Of a DNA stretch of 64,000 bases, positions 6,401 to 63,070 are shown one piece after another (the first letter of the stretch is position 1; each line of letters opens with the position of its first letter). A program made the position numbers and the translations under genes. The notes below the pieces were generated by a model, which was not told the DNA's origin, did no database searches, and saw only the letters and a list, made by a program, of their open reading frames with translations. This stretch comes from Branchiostoma floridae. Taxonomy: Eukaryota; Chordata; Leptocardii; Amphioxiformes; Branchiostomatidae. The stretch lies in NCBI RefSeq assembly GCF_000003815.2, contig NC_049993.1:14823642-14887641 (forward strand), read 5' to 3'.

Positions 6401-8815
6401 ATAGGGTCTAATGTACTAGTTTTATTGTCTTAAATTACATTTGCATTATCGACCATTATCAACGCATTTCTATGTAAACCGAACGTTATACATACAGATG
6501 TTACATTGATGCCGTAATTAGTAAACCTACATGTAATGCTTTTACCCCCCACTGTCTTGCATTACGTCTGCATTTATTAAATGCTAAATATCACTTCAAT
6601 TTGAATTTGGAGTTTTCCCATTCATCTTTTAAAAGTGCAGTACACCCAGTGACTCATGTGTTCATTTATGTATTTAGATATCCATGCACTATCTTATTTA
6701 TGATAATAATAATAACCTTTATTGCACATCCATACCATGTTGGGCTTTTTACAGACATATACATACAAAGGCTGCAATATAGTACAGATGGCTTCTAAGA
6801 TCTAAAAAATGGGTTCTTAAACTAGTCCTGTAAATTTGTTCGACTTCTCGTTTCCTAGTAAACTTAAATATGAAGCTTGAGATATGTTGGTATAATGTAG
6901 TGTAATGTAGTGATCAAAACGCATAAGAAAACTGAATTTTTTAACTGGACAACTACATAAAGTGAATGAACTTTCCTATGATATATTTCTATGTAAAGAG
7001 AATATTTTTATCGTTATAACACCACAATCAGGTTACATTTTATATAGCAACATATCAAAACATGGACAGCCTCTGATAGGCAGAAGCAAAACAACATGGT
7101 AAATGGAGGCAGATGTTGAGGATATTTGCTGAGTTGCGTCTGATTGATTTGGGAGTCCGAAGTCCCACATCTGGTTAAACGTTTATCCCACACGCCTGTC
7201 CGCAGCATCTGTCCATTATGCTTACCACCTGGTTCTTTTTACCAAAGGCAGTTGGGAGCAAACTTTTAATCAATACGTTCTACAGCTGGTAAACAGAACA
7301 TACAGCAAGAAATATAAAGATAATTTTATCCATTTCAGACTAAAAAGTCACAGTTTAGCTAAAATAATATAAAGAAAGTTCAGAATGGTATATCATTGGC
7401 TCCCGATCCTTGCAAAACGTGTTCGACGTCAATATGGACAAGATGAAACCCATCTACCTCGTTCAACATTTAAAAATGCAAAAGGACAAAAGAATGGAGA
7501 TATCGTTATGCCCTGATGCCGCTTCCCCATTAGTTTAAACCGTAATATTCATGCCGTCTTGCGTTAAGTGCCAAAAAAGACCCTCACTGGTCTGAATACT
7601 CAGAATAGGGTGTATGCAAAACATGATCCTTCTTATCTTTTGCATGAATTATGATAGTGATCAAGAACTATTCACGCCTGTACATGTTAAAATATTCCTC
7701 TTAAATTGAAGATATGGTGTGTTTAGTTTGAAGAACTCTTGTCTTTAAGGTGTTAGTAATTTATTAGTCCCTCACATTGAACTACATAAATAAAGATTCA
7801 TATCATAGTTATTGTTTGTTTAGAATTTTTTTACCCAGCGTACTTCAGAACACATTAATACATTAAATTCTTCAAGTATTGTTACAGTAGTAAGTTGACC
7901 ATAAGCCAATGTTGAAAAAGACTTTTAGAAGAACGAGCAATTCAAATCTATTTGGCATTAAATCGATTCTGTTTTGCGCAAACTTTCAATGTATATGCTT
8001 GTATGTTTTTAAATTTGCCTTGCCTTGTCTGCCCAAAGCTTCTGGATCTGTTATCTGTCTCGTGATCTGTAATCCACTCAAATCACTTGTTATGGATCAA
8101 ATCGTCCACTAATCTCTACTCAACTTATAAATAGTTCAACCGCCTAGTTGAGCACTGAGGGGGTTTCGAGTCACCTGTAGTGATCCCTTGGCGCCGTCTT
8201 GATCAGTGTGTCTACGCGTCGTATCAAATGTAAGTCGAACGGTTCCATATGGTAATGGAAACGCTTTGAAGTCATTGGCAATGCTGTCAGTCATAACGTT
8301 AACCACACGAAACCGTCTTTTGTCGTCAATTTGAAATCGCATGCAAGATTTATGAACGGATAATGATGGTAAAATCGTACGCAGGAGGTCTCAAATTATG
8401 GTAAATGCCAAGGATCGCCATGTGATGTAGATGCCCGATGTGATGTCTAGAAAGGATTACTGATAGACAATGATATTAGTCATCCAACATTACTGTGTAG
8501 AAAAGTTGGCAAGTAATTGCTGGAGCTTTGTACAGAGCAAAGCTGTGGAACAAGTCAATACTATGCAGGGCACCAAAAACTTCACCATCTTATTCTTAAA
8601 TCAAAAAAATTTACTTGTGATTTCAAATTTGAAACCGTAGCAAACACAAACTATACGTACTGCTGCAGTACAAAGCTCATACAGCAAAAGGAGGTCAACA
8701 TTTGACCTTGGCCTTTGTCTACCCAACACCATTCAATGGTTATTGACACCTGTCAAATATCAATCTACAATCTACATACAGACACAGACGAAGACACCAA
8801 CACAATCACACAAAT
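6401..8815. other. Non-coding AT-rich region
   Basis: No supported gene. The only stretch with slightly coding-like composition is a minus-strand frame at 8136-8342 (68 codons), unmatched to any family I recognise. Confidence 0.5.
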
Positions 8816-48464: not shown

Positions 48465-48552
48465 AGAGACGGGATGGCGAGTCAGCAATTTCGTGGCCCT
48501 CAGCGCTGGAGCTTTGGGTTGAGTGCTGTCATTCTGTGCGCAATGATTGCAG
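48465..48552 (+). CDS. Exon 1: start codon and signal peptide
   Basis: The start ATG is at 48474. It is followed by a basic n-region (F6 R7 G8 P9 Q10 R11) and a hydrophobic core (WSFGLSAVILCAMIA, residues 12-26), a typical signal peptide with cleavage likely near residue 26. The exon ends at 48552 before gtaaga (phase 1). The frame is open further upstream to an ATG at 48345, but a good splice acceptor (pyrimidine tract then acag, 48446-48464) sits nine bases before this ATG. I therefore prefer a separate upstream 5' UTR exon, which I could not locate with confidence. Confidence 0.75.
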
Positions 48553-51500
48553 GTAAGATAAAACGTAAAATGTTGCTAGCACTAACGTTTTCCATGACTT
48601 TAAAGGGGCATTCTAGTACTCACAAAATTAGTATTGTACCTTATGTTTAGTCTGGCATTGTCAGACACATTGTATCCATCCATAGGCTTGGTTCTGTTAG
48701 AGGGTACTTGGGGATTAAAGTAGAAGACTGAATCCTTTTTTATGCAAAAGTATCAAATATTTACTTTATCGTATGATGTAAAATTGTATGTATTTGATAC
48801 TTCCAAAATTGATACCAATAGGAAAATACCTCAAAGTTTGGCGTAGATGCCCCTTTAGTATGCTATGGATGTTAAAGTGATTTCCTTCAGCATTATGCAT
48901 AAACCAGCGCAATACACTTGTCTTGCAAAACCTAGATTTACATATTACAGGACAATTTGATTTATTTTACCAGTTATAGTGTTCTTATACATGTTAATAT
49001 AGACATTGCAAATACATATTTTTTTGTTTCATCAATGTTAGATACCATTAGACAAAGGGCGTATTTTTATTAGTTTTGAAATATTTTTTACATTTGACCA
49101 CAATTTAGCTACAAAAAGTCCTCTGAATTCTTTTTACGTTTGACGAGATTTTATTGATTTTGATAGCGTTTGTTGTTATGCGTGTATGTAACTAGATGAA
49201 CCGCAATATTTGAGAATGAAGAAATTAATTGTATTGATATGTGGTACGTGGGTAGGCAGGCCATAACATGACCTCCAAATGATTAGACTAGCGGTTGGCC
49301 ACGGTACTGGAGAGAACCTTTGAAAACCCCTTAATAGTTTCACTTCCTACAAACTATAAAATAAAAGCAGTAGCAGCTGAACTTACATTTTCTGATGGCC
49401 AACTGCACTCAAGTTAGTAACTTATATTAACAGTGCCACATACACCGTACAGATATAAGGCAATGGTGGTCGTTTCTTTTAGCTCCCCGATCGAAGTCAG
49501 GTACCCATTCTTACGTCTGGGTGAATTGAGGAAGTCCTTGTAAAGTGGCTTTCCCAAGGTCACAACGTTGGGGGCGCGACGGGTATCGAACTCGGGACCT
49601 CTAGATTCCGGGCCTAACGCTCTTGGTAACAGTTACGCCACACACGACGCCAAATCAAATTGCCAACGTATTTTCCACGTCATTCACCATTTAACTTTTA
49701 CCGGAATGCCTAAAGCAAGACGCGTTTAGCTCTTGACGCGACGAAATTGGTCACACTAAAGCTGGCCATAGCACAGATGAATGGTGACAAATGTCCTGGC
49801 AGTTGCATTGTACTTTCTGGAATAATTTCGTCAGTTTTCTGACTAAATAAGGAATGAAGTTCTTTGTGCAAACCGAGGATTCAACGCTACCGGTATACCG
49901 GCATTTATTCGCTGGGTAACCCATATTGGTTTTAAACATGGAATTCAGGTATATGGTATAACCCAATGGACGGTATTTCAAATTACTATATATTGAAACA
50001 TAGCATACTGAAAATATGAAACCACCAAATATTTCTGAATACCCTTTGAAAAAAGTCAATATAGGTTACTCCATGAATAAAGGTGAACTAGTGGTGAATA
50101 CAACAGTCGTTCGGATGAACATCTGTCCTCTTTGGTAGGAATAGTTATTGTTGCTTGATTTTAATGAAATTATAGCTTATTGACAGTGCAGATAATACAA
50201 TACATGGTAAATCCAAGGTGCCAACATATAAATGCATTTGCACTTCTCGTAGAATACACACAGCTAACTCATATGGTTAACTAAGTATATTTCTGAAAAT
50301 ACGTTTTAAACAGCATTTTTAACAGCTACACCTAGCCGCATTACAAGATGAATAACTAATTGTTTTTACGTTTAATCTTGATTATTTTTTTCTGTTTAAA
50401 CTTTTATTTATTCTTAGAAAATGATACTCTTTCAATTGGCATAATAAGGAAAGAGGTAAGAAAATGGTATTCGTCCATCTGTATCTATTTTCATTGTTGT
50501 GAATTAGGAACTTTCGGGCACATTTGAGCAATTGCTGGCGACACGTATTCGCAAGATCATGTGTTAACAAGATCACCTATCTGCAACATTCTGAAGTGAT
50601 TGATTATGAATATTGATCCTAAAGAAGGCGCTTATGGTCCTTGAAAATTTGATTCGTTTGTACTTTTGTGCTGGTAGAAAAATTAACACTGTACTACTAA
50701 CACATATGAGCTTCCACGAAGAACTTTCTCATTCTAGTACATTTGCAATGTTTCAGTCTCTCAGACGGAGAAGGCGCTGACTGTACAGGGGATGGTAGGG
50801 GACACCGTCATGCTCCCCGGGAACTATGACCCTGACCGTGACAAACCAGTCATCGCACTAACGTGGAACAAACTTGACTCCAAAGTCGAAGGTACCAATG
50901 TTAAATAGCGTATCGTATATGTTATTTCCATCGTTTCTATAGGAAAATTCCTCGTTCTATAAAATGCCGTGACTGCTTAGCGAATAAAGACACTACAGCC
51001 CCTTGAGTAAATTCCATGCATAAGGAAGAAATAAGCCCTTTCAAAGAAGTCAAAAAGCATGTGCGGCGACAGGAATTCTAGGTAATATGTCAAAGGGTAA
51101 GGCCCCGAATTAATAAACAGTCCTTATTTTGACCATTGTTCAATTTGCATAACAATGTTTAGACGAGTTTTGTTTTCAGTTCTTGGGCCTTTCCCTTTAC
51201 ATACTACCTAGAATGAGCCATTTTAATAAAGTCAAAACGCATGTGCGGCGACAGGAATGATAGGTAATATGCCCAAGGGTAAGGCCAAAAAATTGTATCA
51301 GTACTTCCTTCGACCGTTGTTTCGATTTGCAAAACAATGTCCAGACGGGTTTTGTTTCAATTTCGGGGCCTTACCGTTTTGACATCATCCTAGAATAAGC
51401 CATTTCACAGAAGTCAGAACACATGTGCGGCGACACGAACTGTTAGTAATATGTCAAAGGGTAGGGCCCACAAAAAGAATTTGTGTTGACCATTGTTTCG

Positions 51501-54500
51501 ATTTGCATAACAATATCCAGACGGGTTTTGTTTACTTTTTGTGTGCCTTACCCTTTGACATATTACCTAGAATTCCTGTCGCCGCACATGCGTACTAACT
51601 AATGTGAGAAGGCTTATTGTAAGCATGTCAAAGGGTAGGGCCCACAAAAAGTAATCAGTCCTTGTCAAGCCCACTGGAATTCTTTCGATTTGCATAACAA
51701 TATCCAGACAGGTTTCGTTTACATTCTGTGGACCTTACCCGTTGACATATTACATAGAAGTAATATTAAATGGCATATATTTTACAAATATGTTATTGCT
51801 CTATCCAATTGCTCTCCAATACAGACATCATGGATTCCTAAATACACACTACACTGTCAGCCCCCACCCCACTTGAGATGTGCTCAAGGAAGATGGTGTT
51901 TGAAAGCACAGCTTTTTGAAGCCTTATTGTTTTGTTACACCCAAAATGGCAACACGTAAAAGTCATCTAGGTACTGCGTCATTCATTTTACCCGGCCTGT
52001 CATGTTTGAAAGCATACAGATTACAAACACTGACAAGAGAAAATCGTTACCTTTTCTTGTCAGCCAAATCCAAATGCACAAATCCAACGAAGGTACTAAT
52101 TAATGTAATGCTACCATCAAATTCGACACTACACGATTCGCATTCATAAGCTGCTGCATGCCGCCGAATCTGCAGCGACTAATAATTTGCTTGTTATGAA
52201 AAGTACAAATACTGTGACCTGTGACCTCCTAATGCCGCTTAAAGAGGGCGTCAAAAGTACTTAAAAATAGATCACAAATCTCAATATCAGATTATTTCCT
52301 GAACTTGATTTCGTTTTCCCAGTGTGTTAATTTACACCGACTACCATTCTTATCGTGTCAAAGCCATAAATTCTTTGATATATAACCGTACAGCACTAGT
52401 CCTGCTAGATTTATGTTATTTCGCTTGTTGAATCTCACCCTGTAGGTACACGGCATGTTGTCTACATGTTCACGCCCAAGAACTCCATGCCGTCTGGACC
52501 TCTAAAAGACAGAGCGGTGTTCCACAGGAACGGTTCCCTTACCATCCGGGACATCAGAGAGGACGATGAAGGACAGTATGTCATGACCTTGCTGATCGAT
52601 GCAGTAGGGCAACAAGAGCATTTCGTTAACCTGAATGTTGTAGGTATGTGAAATATCTCATTTATAACTTTGCTCCGAGACGGGCGCCGATACCAACTAC
52701 AGAACCTCTTTTACCAGTTGCAAACGTCACACTTCTGGTCCGGATGTGTTACTTAGGCTTTGGGTCATTCTAACTTGATAAGGATCAGGTGAATGATCAA
52801 AAGCTTGTTGGCAAACGCTTTCTTTTGTGTATGGATATATATCGAGGTCATAAAATTGTAACATTAGGTAATATCTGCAGTGTGTGTCAACAAGATGAAT
52901 TCTGAAGAAATTTATACATTTACTATCTTTGTAGTTCTTGATTGGACCTCGAATTGATAAGGATTTGCAAACACACTCTTGTGGCTTGTTATGGTATTGC
53001 ATAGATAATTCCGTTTTCTTTTTGACGCTTTGACGTAAAAGACGTGAAAAAAACTACACCAAGTTTTTATTTTCACCCTAGAAATCATATGTGTAACCAA
53101 ACTTCCGTCAATCGTCTTTTATAACATCGTATGTGCTTGGATTGGTCAATTTCATTTGGCAAAAAGCGATATAATGATGGTCACTTTAATCTGTGGATGC
53201 TTGTAGAATAAAACAGAATACTGGATGCTTTTTATGCGCTCGGAGCTTGTGGTTTCTTCATAGCATACTGGGAAAGGGTTTTATTTTATTTCGTGGAAGT
53301 ATTATCTATTGAAACATAACTCCCCCGTCTGGAGTAGAGTGCTTCTTTTCAATAGACACAGCACATGCCATGCGTTTTACAACCGTTAACTTTATCATTC
53401 AATGTTATGCCAATGTTCTTCTTCGTGCTCTAAAACTCAGTGATAAAGATGGCCACAAGCTGTTTTACACGTGTGCGTTTCTTCTCGTTAACGGTACGGT
53501 CCGCCATCCATCCAAGACGTTAACCGCACTATCAGTTTTTATGATAAGTCTCTTGTGAGTAATCCGCTAATCTACAAGCCGGGAACGCCATAGCGTTATG
53601 GGCTGTCAACCAGGACACAGTTTTGTGGTTTCCGATGATAAAAATCATCATTCAATTAACCTTGGGTCACGCAGGTGCGAGTACGGGGGTAACTCTGTCT
53701 CATAGGATGTTACCTTTCTACGATATTGCGGACGGAATGTGAATGATGTATACGGCAGGATACATGAGTTTGAAGATATATAACGACAGATAACTTGCTC
53801 AGTGTTGCCAATTTAGAAATAATTTCTTGGCATGAGCAAAATACTGATTTTTATTACCGGAAATAAAGCGAAATTGCAACTGAACAATGGATTTTTAGAA
53901 TACATGGCCTAATAGGTACGAAGACAGTGAAGTAAATGGAGTCCTAGATTCTGAGGCGGTAGAGTTATGGTATTCGAAGGTGAAGGCCGTCCCTCTATCT
54001 ACCCTTTCAATCTCTTTTATCTATCCGACCAAAGTAGATACCCGTTTTAACACGTGGCTGGAGTGAGGAATGTCGTGTAAAGTGTCTTTCCCAAGGACAC
54101 GGGGTCTAGTCAGGAATGCAGGAAATTGAACTCGTGATCTATGGCTTGCGTATCTGGTAGCCTAGGCATTGGACCTTTTGACTCTGTTCCATGAGATATT
54201 TAATTGTACATTCTTACAATATATCTTAAAGCCACACAAATTTATAGATCCGTGCACTCATTGATTTTCGCCTGATATTTTCATTTTCTTATTCAGATCG
54301 ACCAAAATTGGTAAATAAGACGAGTTTTAGCCTTATAATTGTATTAATAATTGACACTAGATGTATAGCATTGACTGTAGTTGCAGAAGAGAAACTTGCT
54401 GGGGAACTATAAGAGTAGCAACAAAATGGAACCCACTTTCATCAGCGCAGAACGTGTTAGTATGACCAAAAAGGGATCAGGGCACTTAAGGCGTAGACAT

Positions 54501-57500
54501 ATTAGTTTTTTTTCATCGATGAAATTTCTTGAGCATCCTGTCAAATCGCTATGTCACGGTCATCAGGTTCGATTCATTACATATCGCCGATGCTCTTGTG
54601 TCCTCGGAAAAAGCACTTCGGTCGACTTTCCTCGCTCCACCCAAGTGTAAAAAAGTGTACCTAAATCCATTTGGAGGTAAAAGGTAGTGGATGGAGTGGG
54701 TTGGGCTTCGCATTCATGTACCTTGCCGTCGACAACAAACCAGCGACCTTATATGAATACAGTTACTATATGCGTGTATTTCGTATATCAAATGATATAA
54801 TAATTGAGTGCTGTGCAACAATATCTTCGTCTGACTTAACCCCATTTAGACCAAACGGTTGACATGGCAACACGCAAAATCTTAAAAATTATTCAAACCT
54901 TTTGAAATTGTTATACACTAAATTTTAAGAAATTTAACAAAAATAGTGACTATAGCGCAGGCCGTTCTGTCGTTATGCAATATGAAATTTGGCGCAGGCC
55001 TCAAAAACCCAATTCCTGTTCTGAATAGGGTTAAAGCAATTTTTTTAATGCCTAGCCCACAGCGACGCCACCAGCGAGACTTCAGTGGGAAATCCCCTTA
55101 ACGCCAATCCCTCAAGCGTAAACACCATTCCCTCTAGAAGATGTGTCATTGGTCAAACCAGTAAACTACTTAGGGAGTCAACTTCCTCTCAGCCTTCCTC
55201 TAATGGATGAATAGAGGCGAAACCCCTTGTCGACCTTACCGGAGTGGTGCGCGCTCGCCGAAGGTTACTTGTAACACATGCTGTGCCAGTCCTTGCTATA
55301 GAAGTTGGCCTCTGGCTGCATCAATCCGTCAAAAATCGTTCAGTATGCCTACAGACAGAAGATGATGACACCGAAGCCACAGAGAAAATCTACGTTATAA
55401 CTCAAAAGCTGTGGATCCAAAACACAATTCTGTGACATTTGAGAAGTTTGAGTAGCTTTAAGATTGATACACTGTGTGATGCTGAACAACGACATTCTAT
55501 GCCGTCTGTCATCTTCCTCAGGGCGTGTCATATTCGTTGTACACAACTGCTATATGAAAACGATGTTTTGGTGACCGCCTGAAACTTCCCTCAAGCAAAT
55601 TCTAGCTGGTTGCAAATTCTAACCGGTTGCAAATACTGTGCGACGGATGCACTGGAAGATGAAATGGGTTTTATATGTAACTGCTCCCATTATGAGGATG
55701 AAAGAAACAACCTTTTTGACAGAAAACAATATTTCTAACTTTTCACCAGTTGGTAGACCTCCAAAAAACTATATTCCTGTTAAAATCACAGAACCCACTA
55801 ATCATTAAAGACATGTGACTTTTCATCAGCCACTGCCTCAAAATAAGAAGCCAAACCTCCCATTGAACAATGTAAAATTATGTATATAGATAGCCGTATA
55901 GAATATACACTTTTTACTGTCTGTACCCTTGCAAGTAGCCTACGGGCATGGCTTTGCAAATAAATAAATCAATTATATTATACTGTATCTGTAGATTTCG
56001 CTGCTAACAAATGTGGTCCCGAATAGTTTGCGACCGTCTGTCCCAATTGCTCATGACAAAATTTATTTTGAACTGCAGTATACTTTACTTTGAGCTGCAG
56101 CATAGGTGTCGCTGCTTACAGATGGATATTTGAATTTAAAAAAAAGATGCGTCCCCAAACGGAAAGTATCTCCAAAACGTCAATTCAATGAAACATTTCA
56201 CTGTGTGCAAAGAATTCAACTAGTCAATGACATGCCAACCTGATGGATTTTTAATGACTTTGCCATGTTTCTCTTTTGCAGTACCACCTATTGTAGACAT
56301 GGGAGTTGAAAGCCCCTACCTCGTCTCCCTAGGAACTGATGTCGTCATCAACTGCACTGTAGACAAAAGCAACTCGATCGTAGACTCCGTTAGCTGGCTA
56401 AAAGACGGCCGTCCCCTCTCTGACACCATCCCTAAGGATTACTACCAGGGCTTGGATTTCTACAGGTCTTCCGTCGTTCTTAAGAACATGTCTAAACTTG
56501 ATATAGGAAACTACACCTGTGTGGCCAAAAACTTTGGTACTCAAGAGACGGGGAGCATCTTGCTACAAGCAAAGTGTAAGTATATTCTAGAGATTAACTT
56601 TTAAGGTTTGCTGTAAACACTATATGTCTACGTTTTTAGAATCTTAGATAGTTTAATATTACAGTTTTCTTTGGTCCACTTGAAACCTACTTTTCATGTC
56701 AACAACAAATCGATCATGACATGTACTATGATAATGATAATAAATCATGTCGTAGGAAAAAGGACTTAAATAATACCTCGGGGGTACATTGCATCTTTGA
56801 TATACTAAACAACATATAGCTGATGATGACATTGCTTATAGATAGTTTAGTGTATCACTCATCTCTTTGGTCTATTTGAAACCTTCTTTATATGGCTAAG
56901 TAACAGATCCATCACAGAGACAACTTTTATCATACCTTGGGAGCGTATTGCTTCTTTGATATCCTACACATAGTCCCAGAAGAACTTGTTATTAATGATG
57001 ATGTATACGGTTCCTGTACCTTAATTGTCTTTATGTCAAATTAGGGTACCCATTTTTCATCCATCGTCTTATTACGTCGAACTATGTTGACAGCAATATA
57101 TACCATGTGCTGCATGACAATATTTCTCTTTTGTACTGCCTGATTTTTTTTTAAATTTGAGACATAATGACAACGGACATTTCATTCTGTTAAATGATAG
57201 GAATTTTGTCACGAAGTAAATAAGACGATATTAACTGTGATATAAAAAGAATTGTATGTAATAAAATATGAAGGAAGAGAACAAAAAACAGAATGTACTA
57301 ACACTTCCAAAAACATATGGAATAGTAATGAATGACAATTACTGCGATTTTGGAAACGCTAAGACAGTTTTTTTAAACTTAAAACAATACATCCGTATGT
57401 CAAAGAATGTGTCTCTTTAATAGGTGGCGTCGTCACATTGCAAATGTAGAAAGTTAGATAAATACAATTTACCATTGAACACATTGTCATGGAGGGAAGT

Positions 57501-60500
57501 TATATAAAAAGAAACACTCTTCTCTTCGTGTGAAAAGACAATCTTGGATAGATGGCATGTTATCGATAATCAATAACCCAACAAGCATCCATATTGCAGA
57601 GCACAAAAACTACTCTTTCAAAAGAGCACCTTTTAGGTCTCGCGTCGTTACCCTTCCCTATATTTGTCTATTGAACATGTTTCACACGCACGTTCTATGT
57701 TGAAGATCAATGCATTCAAGGGTCCGAATCCGATACACCAACTCTGATTAATGACCAGGACAGTTCTTGCCAGCCCTCCGGTCATAAATCTTGTCACTTG
57801 GTTACTTTAAGATAATGAAAGTCTATACGTTGACATAAGGAACCTGATTGCAACGTCTGTTTGAGATATTTGAAGCAATCTGTTAGGGTCGATCCTTTGC
57901 CATCGAATAATTTGTCTTACGTAATTAAGGCTCCCAATTTTTACTAGACAGTGGGTTGAATTTATGTGATTCCGGACTACATGATCTGAATGCCATTAAA
58001 ATATAAAATTATAGCTGAAACGACAAGAAGACACAAAAAGCGTTAAGATATTCGATTTTCATCTATGGAATTTATTTAGGGCTTTGTCAAGTCTCTAGGT
58101 TACAAGAAGGTTACTGCCCTAGTGAAATAGGGGTGTCATTCTCAAGAAGCTTATTCACTTATAAGTGGTAGATTATATTGGTGCAAATACCTCCAAAGAA
58201 TAGGAATCTTCAGCAATATTCATTTGACATGTTAGAGATAAAACTGTAGCATTACGTATTTACCTTTAATGCTACATTAAACGTACATGTATTCGGGCAT
58301 GAGTTTACAAATAGAATTTAAATGACTAAAAATAAATCACACTTAGCCATGGTTTTGTTGTCTTTTTTTTTTTTTGCAGACCCTGCTAGGATTACCAACT
58401 CTTCGTCCGGCCTGACAACGACGATAGAATCCAGCGCGACTCTTTGGTGCACTACGGAAGGTATCCCTCCGCCGAAGATCACGTGGTACAAAGACGACCG
58501 AGAAAAGCGTCAAGGGACCATCGTTGAAGGAAATGTCACGTACATGACTATCAGGAGTGTCCGGGTGTCAGACAGTGGCAGCTACAAGTGTTCTGCCAGT
58601 AACGGCCTTGGTGAACCAGATTCCAGGACAATGGTTCTGTCGGTTAATGGACCTGAGGCCAGTGCTTCGACATCCTCATCAGGTATGTGTGCAAGTCAAT
58701 CTCTTAATTCGGTTCAGTGCTTACAAATTCATTTCTTTAGACAGTGATTGCGCTGGAACTTTGCTGAAACCTAAACTGGATCTCAGTAACCTTTTACTTT
58801 ATAATTATAATATTATGCAAAATGTAAGAATGACACATGAGTATTACAAAACACACAAAGCTTTAGAACATTCTATGAAATTTGCTCGACGTTGAGTCAC
58901 ATCTTATGTCGCCGAGGTGAGGTCACTACTATAATAGAATGGGGCTTAACGGACATCAACCTAAAGACGAAAGAACCAATTCAATGTTTTGTTAATCGTA
59001 GTTTAAGTGTTTTCGGGCTTGAAAAAATATGCTGATCTCAAAAAACTGACAGAAAGAGAAACAGAGAGAGAGAGGGAGATGCCGATATGATTTTCAAACG
59101 CCCTTTATGCCTTAAAGTAAAACCAACACCATGTAATTTAATTCACGTTCACTGTTATACTTCACAGAATGGGACAAAACAAATGAAACTTATTGCAACA
59201 TTGGAGTCGAATAGAATAGAACGATGGCATTGATTTATTGTGACTTCTTTAATGTTTTGCGTCATTGCTGTAAACCTTTTATTTCATTTCAATTTTTTAT
59301 TAAAATGCAATGGACGCAATACTCTTCTTGACACAGACAGCTATGCTGATACCTGGTGCCATGATCATATACAAAATTGTTTATCTTATCATCCTGCAGG
59401 ATCAAGCATCTCCGATAGGTGGATCGAGTTCGGTATAATAGTAGGAGGAGCAGTAGTTGGAGCTACCCTGTTGCTGACATCCCTGCTGATCGTCATAATC
59501 TTCACCAAGAGACAGAAGACTAAAAGTCACGGATGCCAGGCGTGTCACGTCGTGGCCATCAGTCACAGCCACCCGAACCTCTGTACCATCGGAGACGACG
59601 TTTGCAGAGGGGCAGAGCCTATGGTTCATATTGACCACAACAAGCACTTAACAGGTAAATGCTAGGGGCCATTATATTCAAGCACTAGAACTAATTAGTT
59701 ACCGTTATAGTTAATGATTTAGGGTTGATTTCAATTAGTTTACAAATGTGAATATCATTCACCGGAGGAGTTTATACAATACTAGTTGCGTGTTTTATTG
59801 CGAATAAGTAATCCCTATTACTCAGTTTGATAATTGATGGTCATTTCCGACTTGAGAAATTTGTGACATTTGGTGTCAATTAATTGATCAATCAGCCAAT
59901 CAATCGATCAATTAATTAATCAATATCCGATATTTCACATCAATGCGCCCTTAGTATTAGCGGCTTTCCATTGGAATACAATTAACTAGCAAGAAGAAAA
60001 AAAAATATATACATAAACTTCTAACGAAATTGATCAACAAATGCCTTATGTAATGTACAAAATGTCTAAGTCCGAATGTATGGGTCAACATTCGAAAAAC
60101 ACCTTTGTAATGAAGTTTAGAGTTTACGTAGATTGATACGTTTTGTTCATACATTGTGTTAACAAACAAAAAGTTTTGTCCACACATCGTGTTAACAAAA
60201 CCTCATTTGTAATATACGGTTCGATCTTACTCCATGCATGCATCCCAGGTCGGTACCTAGCCCGAGCCATCCAAGACTACAAACCAACAGGAGAGGGCGG
60301 TCTCACACTGGAGATCAACGACATCGTAGAGGTGCTCCACACAGGCAGAGACGGCTGGTGGTACGGGTACATGAGAGGCAACTTTGGCTTCTTCCCAGCC
60401 CGAGCTGTCACTGTGCTCACATGCAAAAGAAGAGTGTCTATTGGTACGGTCAGAACTTGATTGTTAGATCATTTACAAACAATTGTTTGCTTTTCTTGAT

Positions 60501-61900
60501 ATCTAATGCCATCTTTTTAGAGATATTGAATGATAGTAAAGTTGATTTCATATCCATGCCCCATTTGGGCTAAATGCATTACGTTTGATACAAAGGGGGT
60601 AAACAAAAAGCTCTCCACGTGCACATACCATTGTTATTTAGCTTATTTTCTCTTCATGTTTAGACAAACTTACAGACTTTTACCAGTGTATTATAGTTAG
60701 ATGATGACATAAGATACTAGAAAGTATTAAAACTTATTATAAAAAGTATATTATCTCTGTAAGCACGAATGTGCAACTGCCCCTACGGCCACTTGAGCTA
60801 CGGGACTGAGAAAGAAGAAAAAGAAGCATGATTTAGGTTTCATTTTCTGACATTTAAAATAGACGTATCTCTTTTTGTTTGTTTTTATGGTCTTATTTGT
60901 CGTAGATCGTCGTACAATGTCAAGCACAGGCGGTGATAGAACCAACCGCCGACAGAAAACTAACACAGCCTTTCCAGTAGCAAGACAGTTCAACTTTACA
61001 GGTCACATGCATGACTGCCCTAAGAAAGTCCAAAACCTGCAATCTTACAACGATTGTACTAAGGATGTCCAAAACTTGTGATCATACTGCGATCGTACTA
61101 AGAATATTCAATAATTGCATTTTACCACGATTGTAGAACAAGTGTGCAGGGCCCTTTTTTCGACTTGTCCTACAACTCTTTTCGTACCCCCAGGACAGGA
61201 GGAGAGAGCGCATGCGCAGGGAAGCAGTCGCAAAGCTAACGTCGACCTGCTAGGAACACTCCCATTGGAGACCAACAGCAAAATTACTGCATTTCAGGTC
61301 AGTTTCATTAGATCATCCCATTATATATACTTGAAATGTTTTACTTTCTTGCAATGACATGAAAAGCGATAGATTTCTCCACTGATCGTAGCAAGTCATT
61401 CATGGCATAATTTTTATAATTTGTTTAAATTTCATGCCTAACTTTGGTTTAGTTTTGATTGTGTACAATTTAAACCATCGAATCGAAGTTATTCAGTTTC
61501 TAGAGGGTTCCACAGAAAGTAAGACGAGTTTCTTGCCCCCTTGCATGTTGTTTTAGTTGTTTTGAATGTATGAAAATAAACAAGCAGACGAACTTCAAAA
61601 CAGCAAGGGTAGTTTTTTCTTAGAGAATGAAAAAAGTACGTTAGAAATTAGTACTAACGCTAATACCCGATGTCAAAATAACTTTTAAATTAGTAAACTT
61701 TGGTATTATACTGGTAGTAAAAGTTAAAATGTAGAGTGTGCTAGTTTATTTATCACGTTTTCTATCTAATCAATTCAAGAATAATCGTTGCACAGGTTGG
61801 AAAGAATGATGACGAGGCAGCATTGACGGTGAAGAGCTGTACCGGATATGACGTCAGCAGACGTGTGCAGACGACCCCTGACGACTCGGACGATGAGTGA
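48474..61900 (+). CDS. Ig-superfamily adhesion receptor with cytoplasmic SH3 domain (V-Ig-Ig-TM-SH3), 10 coding exons
   Basis: Hand-assembled CDS: join(48474..48552, 50757..50891, 52446..52643, 56282..56575, 58380..58682, 59400..59654, 60249..60443, 60906..61001, 61194..61297, 61796..61900), 1,764 nt, 587 residues plus TGA. All introns are GT-AG and splice phases match throughout (phase 1 at junctions 1-8, phase 0 at the last). Order: signal peptide 1-26; V-like Ig 27-137, without the two canonical Cys; C2/I-type Ig about 138-235 (C162, W176, C217); Ig about 236-324 (C259, W271, C306); Ser/Thr-rich stalk 325-343; transmembrane helix about 347-371 followed by KRQK; Cys/His-rich segment 380-419; SH3 about 424-478; tail to 587. 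N-glycosylation sequons lie at N100, N161, N206, N214, N242 and N287. The ectodomain, notably NGSLTIRDIREDDEGQY and SWLKDGRPL, recalls HEPACAM/GlialCAM and CEACAM-type V+C2 adhesion proteins, which have no SH3. Predicted to act at the plasma membrane in adhesion or recognition; ligand unknown. Family assignment is by eye, not by search. Least certain parts are exon 8 and the donor of exon 7. Confidence 0.85.
48553..50756 (+). other. Intron 1 of the receptor gene
   Basis: GT-AG, 2,204 bp, phase 1. Contains the SINE copy at 49481-49645. Nothing else coding. Confidence 0.75.
49481..49645 (-). repeat. tRNA-derived SINE (copy A), in intron 1
   Basis: On the minus strand it starts 'gtgtggcgtaactgttacca' (box-A-like) followed by box B 'ggtcccgagttcgatacc'. 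The body then carries the complements of 'tttcccaaggtcacaac' and 'caggtacccatt'. The same order recurs at 54011-54184. Confidence 0.7.
50757..50891 (+). CDS. Exon 2: first half of V-like Ig domain
   Basis: Acceptor tttcag at 50751-50756; donor GAAG|GTACCA after 50891. It encodes residues 27-71 and is phase 1-1. It contains the B-strand region 'GDTVMLPGNY' (41-50), with Gly48 where a Cys would be expected, and the C-strand Trp63 in 'ALTWNKL'. The V domain is split by an intron after residue 71, between the C strand and the D/E strands. Confidence 0.8.
51058..51760. repeat. Array of four palindromic units in intron 2
   Basis: Four head-to-tail units of about 165-185 bp. Each begins near 'catgtgcggcgacagga' or its remnant and has a left arm 'aatatgtcaaagggtaaggc'. 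A middle follows with 'gatttgcataacaat' and 'gacgggttttgttt', then a right arm 'gccttaccctttgacatatt' that is the reverse complement of the left. The whole array is thus an internally repeated fold-back element. The ends at 51058 and 51592 are also inverted copies of each other. Confidence 0.8.
52446..52643 (+). CDS. Exon 3: second half of V-like Ig domain
   Basis: Acceptor ctgtag at 52440-52445; donor GTAG|GTATGT after 52643. Encodes residues 72-137, phase 1-1. It contains sequon N100-G-S, the E-strand 'SLTIRDI' (102-108) and the F-strand signature 'DDEGQYVM' (111-118). The D-x-G-x-Y core is kept, but the Cys two residues after Tyr is replaced by Met118. G-strand 'FVNLNVV' closes the domain at 131-137. 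Confidence 0.85.
52644..56281 (+). other. Intron 3 of the receptor gene
   Basis: GT-AG, 3,638 bp, phase 1. Contains a SINE at 54011-54184 and a GC-richer patch (55060-55400) with coding-like texture but frequent stops, possibly retroelement debris. No exon recognised inside. Confidence 0.7.
54011..54184 (-). repeat. tRNA-derived SINE (copy B), in intron 3
   Basis: Same family and orientation as copy A: 'gtagatacccgtttta', 'gtgtctttcccaaggacac' and the box B complement 'gaaattgaactcgtg' occur in matching order. More diverged at the tRNA end. Confidence 0.65.
56282..56575 (+). CDS. Exon 4: second Ig domain (C2/I type)
   Basis: Acceptor ctcttttgcag ends at 56281; donor AAGT|GTAAGT after 56575. 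Encodes residues 138-235, phase 1-1, a whole Ig domain on one exon. It has the complete signature: 'VVINC' (Cys162), 'SWLKDGRPL' (Trp176), and 'LDIGNYTCVAKN' (Tyr215, Cys217). Sequons are N161-C-T, N206-M-S and N214-Y-T. The domain opens with VPP, a usual inter-domain linker. Confidence 0.92.
56641..56975. repeat. Imperfect tandem duplication in intron 4
   Basis: Copy 1 (about 56641-56815) and copy 2 (about 56836-56975) share 'agatagttta', 'tttggtc.a.ttgaaacc', 'taccttggg.gc..attgc' and 'tctttgatat.cta' in order. Confidence 0.6.
58380..58682 (+). CDS. Exon 5: third Ig domain and stalk
   Basis: The acceptor has an uninterrupted T tract followed by gcag (58360-58379); donor TCAG|GTATGT after 58682. 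Encodes residues 236-336, phase 1-1. The Ig signature is complete: 'ATLWC' (Cys259), 'PPPKITWYKD' (Trp271) and 'SDSGSYKCSASNGLG' (Tyr304, Cys306). Sequons lie at N242-S-S and N287-V-T. The exon ends in a Ser/Thr-rich stalk (residues 330-336), a possible O-glycosylated membrane-proximal spacer. Confidence 0.93.
59046..59080. repeat. Short purine (GA)n tract in intron 5
   Basis: 'agaaagagaaacagagagag' and similar; low complexity. Confidence 0.8.
59400..59654 (+). CDS. Exon 6: transmembrane helix and Cys/His-rich juxtamembrane segment
   Basis: Acceptor atcctgcag ends at 59399; donor ACAG|GTAAAT after 59654. Encodes residues 337-421, phase 1-1. The hydrophobic stretch F347-F371 starts 'GIIVGGAVVG' and continues with a Leu/Ile-rich half. 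G348, G352/G353 and G357 form GxxxG-type spacing of the sort that can pack helices together. A stop-transfer 'TKRQKTK' follows, fixing the type I orientation. Residues 380-419 hold four Cys (382, 385, 398, 405) and seven His (380, 386, 392, 394, 413, 416, 419). Confidence 0.92.
60249..60443 (+). CDS. Exon 7: cytoplasmic SH3 domain
   Basis: Acceptor catcccag ends at 60248; donor ATTG|GTACGG after 60443 (a weak donor). Encodes residues 422-486, phase 1-1. The SH3 fold signatures are in order: 'ARAIQDYKP' (426-434, equivalent of ALYDY), 'GLTLEINDIVEVL' (439-451), the WW pair W458-W459 in 'GRDGWWYGYM', and 'GNFGFFPARAV' (465-475). It then runs into basic 'CKRRVSI' with a PKA-like RRVS site (S485). 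If the donor is not used, the frame stops at 60460, four residues beyond the splice point, giving a form truncated just after the SH3. Confidence 0.92.
60906..61001 (+). CDS. Exon 8: basic tail segment
   Basis: Acceptor ttatttgtcgtag ends at 60905; donor ACAG|GTCACA after 61001 (weak). Encodes residues 487-518, phase 1-1, with no recognisable domain: 'DRRTMSSTGGDRTNRRQK' is Arg/Ser/Thr-rich and plausibly phosphorylated. Skipping this exon would keep the frame between exons 7 and 9, so it may be alternative. Support comes from the open frame, the matching phase and the position; both splice sites are mediocre. Confidence 0.55.
61018..61137. repeat. Tandem repeat in intron 8, period about 44
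   Basis: Units of the form 'ctaag.a.gtccaaaac.tg' followed by 'taccacgattgtac' occur two and a half times between exons 8 and 9. Confidence 0.6.
61194..61297 (+). CDS. Exon 9: tail segment
   Basis: The acceptor is a pyrimidine-rich run ending cgtacccccag at 61193; donor TTTCAG|GTCAGT after 61297. Encodes residues 519-553, entering in phase 1 and leaving in phase 0. It has no domain: a polar first half (GQEERAHAQGSSRKAN) and 'VDLLGTLPLETNSKI'. No PxxP motif is present that could serve as an internal SH3 ligand. Confidence 0.7.
61796..61900 (+). CDS. Exon 10: acidic C-terminus and stop
   Basis: The acceptor 'cgttgcacag' ends at 61795. Encodes residues 554-587 followed by TGA (61898-61900). 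The end 'TTPDDSDDE' is strongly acidic with a CK2-type site (S584-D-D-E). It is not a PDZ ligand. An AATAAA lies 35 bases past the stop. Confidence 0.7.
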   Translation, partial: VGKNDDEAALTVKSCTGYDVSRRVQTTPDDSDDE

Positions 61901-63070
61901 TGGATTTTCTGACGTCATAGTGGTATTCAAAGGCAATAAAGCAGATGGCGCAATCACAATTCGTTTGTAAGAGCGTTTGCCCTTCTTAGACGTATGCATT
62001 CATCGTCTTAAAAAAACTGTAGACGATGTTAATTCTGCATACAACTTTACTAGTATGCTTCGGAAAAATTGAAATTGAAAGTGTTACTTTCTTGGAATTA
62101 CACGATGCATAAAAAAGATTGCTCCATATTTTATCTGTAAGATTGAAACTTGTAGTCATCAGAACTCCGTCTCTGAAAACATCTCAATATATAATATAAA
62201 GAATTGTTTTTGTAGGAGGTACATCGGTGTCAAACATCCGTTTAGTTAATCCTACACTTTTAATACGTATAGTTGGTAAATAGTGCATTTTGACCAAGAA
62301 CTCTTGTAAAATTGTACCTTTAATGCACTTTGTTGCCAGGGTTGTTTGTTGTTCTTCTTCTGCAAGTATTGGTTTTCAATATTCTTTGCAAAATGTATTG
62401 CAATGGTCAATGTTTATGTAGTTCTTTTCAAATATTGTTGTTATCTTTTTTTTATACTTAATATCTAGCCAAAAGCTATTGGTGTAAGGTACACAATTGG
62501 ATACAAATGTCACACTTCAGCAAATACAAGGACAATGCGATTGAAAATACGATGTATAAATAAGACGGATAGAGTTGCTCATGAGATGCCTTAACATTTG
62601 TCGGTACGGTCCGTATTTGTAAACTAAAACATCGCCTAAAAATGTAACTTTGTGATGTTTTGTACAGAAAACATGTAGACATCAACAGTATATAACTGTA
62701 TTTGATTAATAGACGTTAACTGTGCAAACGTGTTTCGTTCTATGATCATGTGGTTGTCTGTTGGTTTCAAAAATATTCAAGTATTGTAGTAAATTTGTAG
62801 TAAAATGTAAACTCAGATTTGTGGATGTGTTGACATTGTTGAAATGACTGTTTGAAGTTACTTTTTACATATGGCTGATGCGACTTAGACAACTAATCGT
62901 ATTTTTAAACTTAAAATTGTAAGAAATTACTTGATCTGAAGCACCATGTATAGATAAGGATGATGACAAAAGCGCATGTATGTAAGAAATGTACATAATA
63001 TATATATTTTCCCCATTCCTAGCCAAGCATAAGTCTTTTTTGAAATAAAAGAATTTTACTCTTCAAAGAT
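61901..63070 (+). other. Probable 3' UTR of the SH3-Ig receptor gene
   Basis: AT-rich non-coding sequence follows the stop with no further open frame of note. Two candidate ends exist. A very short UTR would use AATAAA at 61935-61940. A 1.1-kb UTR would use AATAAA at 63044-63049; about 30 bases later comes a GT-rich stretch (63078-63109), as expected of a downstream cleavage element. I favour the longer form. The exact cleavage site cannot be read from sequence alone. Confidence 0.5.
61935..61940 (+). terminator. Proximal AATAAA hexamer
   Basis: Canonical hexamer 35 bases after the stop codon. No strong GT-rich element follows at the usual distance, so I regard it as a weak or alternative site. 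Confidence 0.3.

Follow-up and report, generated by a model that had tools for sequence, protein, structure and literature searches.

An immunoglobulin receptor gene with a cytoplasmic SH3 exon in the Florida lancelet, and the gene family to which it appears to belong

Whether a cell-surface receptor of the immunoglobulin (Ig) superfamily can carry an SH3 domain in its own cytoplasmic tail, and whether such a receptor would be a lone oddity, is the question raised by a stretch of 64,000 nucleotides from the Florida lancelet Branchiostoma floridae (NC_049993.1, positions 14,823,642 to 14,887,641, forward strand; the whole stretch is called the window here, and its receptor gene the window gene). 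The original prediction had joined ten exons into such a receptor, named no vertebrate Ig receptor built in this way and proposed that it recruits PxxP partners directly. Judged by sequence, the window gene encodes a type I cell-surface receptor and is one of a lancelet family of about fifty genes with the same exon order (V, Ig, Ig, transmembrane, SH3), a membership that the prediction had overlooked. Its observation of an Ig receptor with SH3 is confirmed and its interpretation partly supported.

The window gene and its relatives in the genome

The open reading frame, for which the exons were re-cut from the sequence, runs on the plus strand from an ATG at 48474 to a TGA at 61900 and joins ten exons into 587 residues. 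All nine introns are of the GT-AG type, with phase 1 at eight junctions and phase 0 at the last, and a polyadenylation signal follows the stop; the predicted single frame with agreeing splice phases held. The product is ordered as signal peptide, V domain, two further Ig domains, one transmembrane helix, the SH3 exon and a tail. When the 587-residue product was searched with Pfam, as the prediction had proposed, V-set was best over residues 34-136 (1e-19, whole protein), Ig_3 and I-set corresponded to the other two Ig domains and SH3_2 to residues 426-476 (2.7e-12); the helix was taken from the strongest hydrophobic stretch, at about residues 349-371, which is followed by KRQKTK. No cysteine was found in residues 27-137, which span the V domain, while the second and third Ig domains each have a Cys pair. 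Six N-glycosylation sequons lie within residues 27-349, and one more (NFT) was seen by eye, rather than by systematic search, in the tail. An intracellular titin-like or kalirin-like protein was ruled out by the transmembrane helix and the signal-like start, although a plain sequence comparison of the ectodomain ranks titin first; the intracellular Ig-SH3 proteins (kalirin, Trio, obscurin) are cytoplasmic and have neither signal peptide nor transmembrane helix.

Genome-wide searches covered the 513 Mb genome containing the window. The SH3 exon of the window gene, used as query, matched 68 places with an E value of at most 0.01, and contigs C14, C15 and C16 account for 54 of these. Fifty-seven were kept, chosen by eye; the 11 dropped were one partial duplicate and ten matches with E 3e-5 to 8e-3, on other stretches, that were judged unrelated. 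Matches to one family V exon (68 places) and one second-Ig exon, Ig2 (62 places), were overlaid on them. At 51 of the 57 SH3 places the SH3 exon was preceded, within a limit of 80 kb and on its own strand, by V and then Ig2 without a further listed SH3 intervening, i.e., at 30/30 on C14, 11/15 on C15, 7/7 on C16 and 1/1 on each of C2, C7 and C18, with none on C9 and C13. V was upstream at 36 places and downstream at 2 within 12 kb, at 42 and 4 within 20 kb, and at 51 and 12 within 40 kb. The 52 SH3 places paired with V used 52 distinct V places, and 16 of the 68 V places were unpaired, some of them being fragments; a second V query, of the C15 type, recovered nearly the same set (61 places). 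With transmembrane exon matches added, V, Ig2, transmembrane and SH3 stood in order on one strand at 38 places (C14 30/30, C15 4/15, C16 2/7, C2 and C7 one each). As a control, 147 Pfam SH3_1 matches in the genome were compared. Of these, 53 were among the listed places, which still include the C9 and C13 exons, and 48 of the 53 had V upstream at a distance of no more than 40 kb; none of the 94 others did. It is from this contrast, together with the ordered exons, that the window gene is taken as one of about fifty; the family counts are lower bounds and may include pseudogenes. A lone oddity was rejected, as related SH3 exons and paired V and Ig2 exons were found elsewhere in the genome.

Reading frames were tabulated for three short C14 genes (L044-L046). 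In L045, Pfam run exon by exon returned V-set, Ig, I-set and SH3, the transmembrane exon having no family over the cut-off, and phase-1 sites were available at all five exons. Several results weigh against extending the full architecture to every member. The transmembrane exon was matched by sequence at only 38 of the 57 SH3 places, and a hydropathy scan gave a convincing one in 13 of 21 loci, so that the transmembrane step is not established for some C15 and C16 members; some of the loci extracted were too short to contain a V exon. Six of the 57 SH3 places had no V/Ig2 pairing: two (C9, C13) were taken as outside the family, three are probably second SH3 exons, and one lacks the Ig2 match only. 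No phase-1 donor was found for the L044 transmembrane exon in the stretch examined, and an extra exon before SH3 is therefore possible in that gene. Of 60 rows, among them controls and a partial copy, 53 had both phase-1 sites flanking SH3, which is weak evidence because AG and GT occur so often. It is unlikely that haplotype copies were counted as genes, since the SH3 exon next door is 78% identical and the C14 SH3 exons average 77%, though pairs that are nearly identical (up to 98%) may have arisen by recent copying.

A further concern is the join of exons 6 and 7. In passages of PMC4967905, lancelet domain combinations are criticised as gene-prediction errors, and independent support of the join was therefore sought. 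By this account the gene for an Ig receptor and that for an SH3 protein beside it would have been united on paper only. The best check on the join is the same order repeated in paralogues, and it recurs in the next-door copy L024, whose transmembrane and SH3 exons are 66% and 78% identical to those of the window gene, at 38 of the 57 SH3 places, every C14 place included, and in the contrast between listed and other SH3 matches given above. Moreover, the SH3 exon of the window gene is bounded on either side by phase-1 splice sites, and the open frame runs on through exons 8-10 to the stop and the polyadenylation signal. The chimeric gene model was rejected because paralogues repeat the V-Ig2-transmembrane-SH3 join, and we give it almost no credence.

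Features of the window gene are collected in Table 1. Upstream, the 45 open reading frames of at least 80 amino acids starting at positions 1-48000 of the window were inspected by eye only. Intron 2 holds, at 51030-51759, a cluster of 75-81 nt repeats, direct and inverted, spaced about 182 nt apart, which may be a nested array of mobile elements. L024 itself (C15:14887700-14897600, minus strand) is a tail-to-tail paralogue just past the window end, with its SH3 exon about 4 kb away; it has V, Ig2, third Ig (Ig3), transmembrane and SH3 exons, and the CQxC juxtamembrane block of the window gene is common to it and L026. In L026 a second, partial SH3 exon copy (sense 8624-8701; C15:19823723-19823800) lies just downstream of the full one. 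Close pairs of SH3 exons, possibly belonging to tandem-SH3 receptors, occur at C15:14181536 and 14178198 (minus strand) and at 8889532 and 8890327 (plus strand); in both pairs the first has altered groove residues and the second intact ones. In L012 and L013 (C15, about 16.10 and 16.14 Mb) V, Ig and transmembrane matches occur with no SH3 match nearby, which could reflect loss or a state before SH3 gain, and at about 15.060-15.065 Mb of C14 (minus strand) V, Ig2 and transmembrane matches without a paired SH3 may represent an SH3-less or broken member.

Table 1. Exons and polyadenylation signal of the window gene (positions in the window)
Feature	Position	Strand	Remarks
Exon 1: start codon, putative signal peptide (residues 1-26)	48474..48552	+	Hydrophobic LSAVILCAMIA; signal-like by hydrophobicity
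Exon 2: V domain, first part	50757..50891	+	V-set 34-136 maps to 50777-52639
Exon 3: V domain, second part	52446..52643	+	Pfam V-set; without cysteine in residues 27-137
Exon 4: second Ig domain, Cys pair at 162 and 217	56282..56575	+	Pfam
Exon 5: third Ig domain, Cys pair at 259 and 306	58380..58682	+	Pfam
Exon 6: transmembrane helix at residues 349-371 (about 59435-59503), then the juxtamembrane tail, which contains a CQxC motif	59400..59654	+	
Exon 7: SH3 domain, one symmetric phase 1-1 exon, 195 nt	60249..60443	+	Pfam match about 60260-60412
Exon 8: cytoplasmic tail	60906..61001	+	No match at E 0.01 in next-door paralogue L024
Exon 9: cytoplasmic tail, partly conserved in next-door paralogue L024	61194..61297	+	
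Exon 10: tail end and stop codon	61796..61900	+	No match at E 0.01 in next-door paralogue L024
Polyadenylation signal AATAAA, begins 35 bases past the stop	61935..61940	+	

The SH3 groove and the constraint on it

The SH3 exon of the window gene was modelled with a mean predicted local distance difference test (pLDDT) score of 88 as an ordinary SH3 fold, with a template-modelling score of 0.85 to the beta-PIX SH3. The model matched the SH3 folds of CD2AP, beta-PIX and Grb2, and also, at 36% identity, an SH3 of Shank3 that is called unconventional in the title of its entry. Five residues form the canonical groove, i.e., the two Tyr of ALYDY, Trp, Pro and the Tyr of SNYV, and all five are expected in a canonical PxxP-binding SH3. 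The window gene reads Q-Y-W-P-A and keeps three of them, the first Tyr of ALYDY being replaced by Gln and the Tyr of SNYV by Ala, while the second Tyr, Trp and Pro are kept; this counts against direct PxxP binding by this particular receptor. Its fold is secure, the PxxP partner not.

Among the relatives the groove is mostly intact. Trp, Pro and the last Tyr were kept in 37/37 SH3 exons of C14 (30) and C16 (7), and each ALYDY Tyr in 28/30 on C14 and 7/7 on C16, so that all five residues were present in 7/7 of the C16 exons. On C15, by comparison, 3 of 15 SH3 exons keep both the first and the last Tyr and 12 keep neither; of the three exons on C2, C7 and C18 the first Tyr was kept in one and the last Tyr in two. 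Two SH3 classes, with intact and with altered groove, can thus be distinguished among the predicted family members. The predicted recruitment of PxxP partners would fit most family members by their groove residues, and it is weak for the window gene because two of the five are replaced. The groove of the p47phox SH3 reads A-Y-W-P-F, and that domain still binds a proline ligand.

Replacement of the first and last Tyr, both of which are missing from 12/15 C15 exons, could also mean that the SH3 of the window gene binds no peptide and survives as a relic or serves as a structural spacer, and some V-Ig-transmembrane relatives indeed show no SH3 match nearby. We consider this rather doubtful. Between the window gene and L024 the SH3 exon had the lowest proportion of nonsynonymous differences (pN) of six segments (pN 0.117; synonymous, pS, 0.729) and Ig3 the highest (0.298), and three groove residues (second Tyr, Trp, Pro) persist. 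SH3 again had the lowest pN among the segments compared in L039-L040, L044-L046 and L044-L045. Two results temper this picture of constraint. In L035-L036 the V segment was more conserved than SH3 (0.032 vs 0.076), which counters a simple rule, and synonymous divergence (dS) between the window gene and L024 was saturated or near saturation, for which reason the ratio of nonsynonymous to synonymous divergence (dN/dS) was set aside for this pair.

As to origin, the symmetric phase 1-1 SH3 exon is what exon shuffling would leave. In the SH3 tree, which was built on few columns, the C14 exons formed one side of a supported branch (100/99), and the remainder was unresolved with many open forks. Derivation from a named adaptor was set aside on account of this unresolved tree, in which three C9 SH3 exons (of a presumed soluble adaptor) and the C13 one fell among the family rows.

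Proposed action and possible role

No PxxP, YxN or immunoreceptor tyrosine-based inhibitory motif (ITIM) pattern was found when the cytoplasmic tail of the window gene was scanned for these, and its sole YxxM sits within SH3. The absence of PxxP agrees with the predicted, still putative reversal of wiring relative to proline-tailed relatives. In the C14 tails that were read (20 of 30), YYNM was present in 12/20, YxxM in 14/20 and YxN in 15/20, within a conserved block of the form KKFAFYYNMG; none of these was found in the three non-C14 tails examined alongside, and the window gene has no YYNM-type motif. The C14 motif resembles a CD28-type site as a pattern match only, and such short tyrosine motifs are weak evidence of function.

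In the ectodomain, the nine V domains read in alignments, that of the window gene included, all lack the canonical cysteines. For a C14 member the V model (pLDDT 94.6) had TIGIT, CEACAM N domains, CRIg, nectins and CD226 as its nearest folds in the PDB, with VCBP3 at rank 50, and a profile search gave JAML, Robo2, CD276, CEACAM1 and nectin-1 among its matches. Several of these V-fold relatives bind V to V.

We consider it probable that the window gene encodes a type I receptor of the family of about fifty that acts by V recognition, clustering and recruitment through a tethered SH3. The V domain, with its modelled fold of the TIGIT, nectin and CEACAM kind, would recognise partners on other cells or on the same membrane, and engagement would cluster the receptors and so raise the local density of tethered SH3 modules beneath the membrane. 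No separate adaptor would then be needed for these modules to bind PxxP partners in most members, and the juxtamembrane YYNM-type tyrosine of many C14 members, once phosphorylated, could also recruit PI3K or Grb2. Given the altered groove of the C15 group, the SH3 of the window gene probably binds a restricted or non-canonical partner, or the receptor may act in cis with family members.

It could be argued that these are plain nectin-like adhesion molecules, in which SH3 merely ties junctions to actin regulators and no recognition or immune role exists. The V fold near nectins and the V-Ig-Ig order favour this, and it is close to the published reading in the portions of PMC7286890 consulted. 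On the other hand, there are about fifty copies, and the V domains of three C14 genes share 37-46% identity whereas the 30 C14 SH3 exons share 77% on average (58-98%). The tail end DDSDDE is also unlike the nectin PDZ-type end. These points leave room for adhesion, which as the whole explanation is possible but seems unlikely; the divergent V beside a constrained SH3 suggests a role in recognition, be it immune, of self and non-self or in adhesion by cell type, more than in housekeeping junctions.

A further step is offered tentatively. The family may form a large germline-encoded recognition system of about fifty V-Ig-Ig receptors, thirty of them on C14, with a diverging nectin/TIGIT-like V and, in the C14 tails, a CD28-like YxNM together with a strongly conserved SH3. 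In vertebrates the proline ligands sit on the costimulatory receptors, to which SH3 proteins are recruited; with the SH3 on the receptor, signalling would, if this possibility were true, be wired the opposite way. Lancelets are the usual outgroup for the origin of vertebrate lymphocyte receptors and their signalling. About fifty Ig receptors with a fused adaptor are a concrete, cloneable candidate for self/non-self, pathogen or cell-type recognition in lancelets. In this family one can test directly whether SH3 wiring close to the receptor works when the receptor itself bears the module, the intact-groove and altered-groove SH3 classes serving as an internal control.

Comparison with known systems

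The architecture is not new. In a survey of how nectins evolved, published in 2020, a Florida lancelet protein appears with IgV/IgC/IgC/TM/SH3, TM being the transmembrane segment; it is described there as seemingly confined to Branchiostoma, and the suggestion is made that several adaptors are thereby dispensed with (PMC7286890, in the portions consulted). The predicted single receptor with a cytoplasmic SH3 stood. The domain order and the adaptor-bypass idea are the same as for the window gene, which may or may not be the gene of that protein. The survey presents one tabulated protein, with no accession in the text consulted, and in those portions family, genomic arrangement, SH3 classes and tail motif do not appear; provisionally, the scale of about fifty genes goes beyond them. 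Among the papers listed, which were judged by title and start of abstract and in passages of PMC10199209, PMC13428168, PMC2632668 and PMC4967905, a range with subscription papers mostly outside, PMC7286890 alone was seen to describe such a protein, and no family-scale description was found.

Nectins, nectin-like molecules and TIGIT/CD226 share the V-Ig-Ig-transmembrane order, and their V fold is among the nearest in the PDB. The nectin ectodomain (V-C-C) followed by a transmembrane segment is likewise present in the window gene; its V domain, in contrast, has no cysteines, SH3 lies in the tail, and the product ends in PDDSDDE without the C-terminal PDZ-binding motif that the nectin family has (PMC7286890, portions consulted). 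CEACAM N-domains are also among the nearest folds of the V model. They lack the canonical disulphide as well. In place of the ITIM pattern, which was not found in the window tail (the activating counterpart, ITAM, having had no separate search), there is SH3.

In CD28 the phosphorylated YMNM binds PI3K p85 and a change of its Asn abolishes Grb2 binding, and CD28 carries proline motifs where the lancelet receptors carry SH3 (passages of PMC9496564). The 12/20 C14 tails with YYNM fit the same YxxM and YxN patterns, and the window gene does not have YYNM. The SH3 domains of p47phox (NCF1), beta-PIX, CD2AP/CIN85 and Grb2 are among the nearest sequences or folds to the family SH3, and these proteins are soluble, with no transmembrane segment. 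Fus1, Sho1 and Pex13 are membrane proteins with a cytosolic SH3, so that a membrane-tethered SH3 is not unique to the lancelet family, although none of the three is an Ig receptor.

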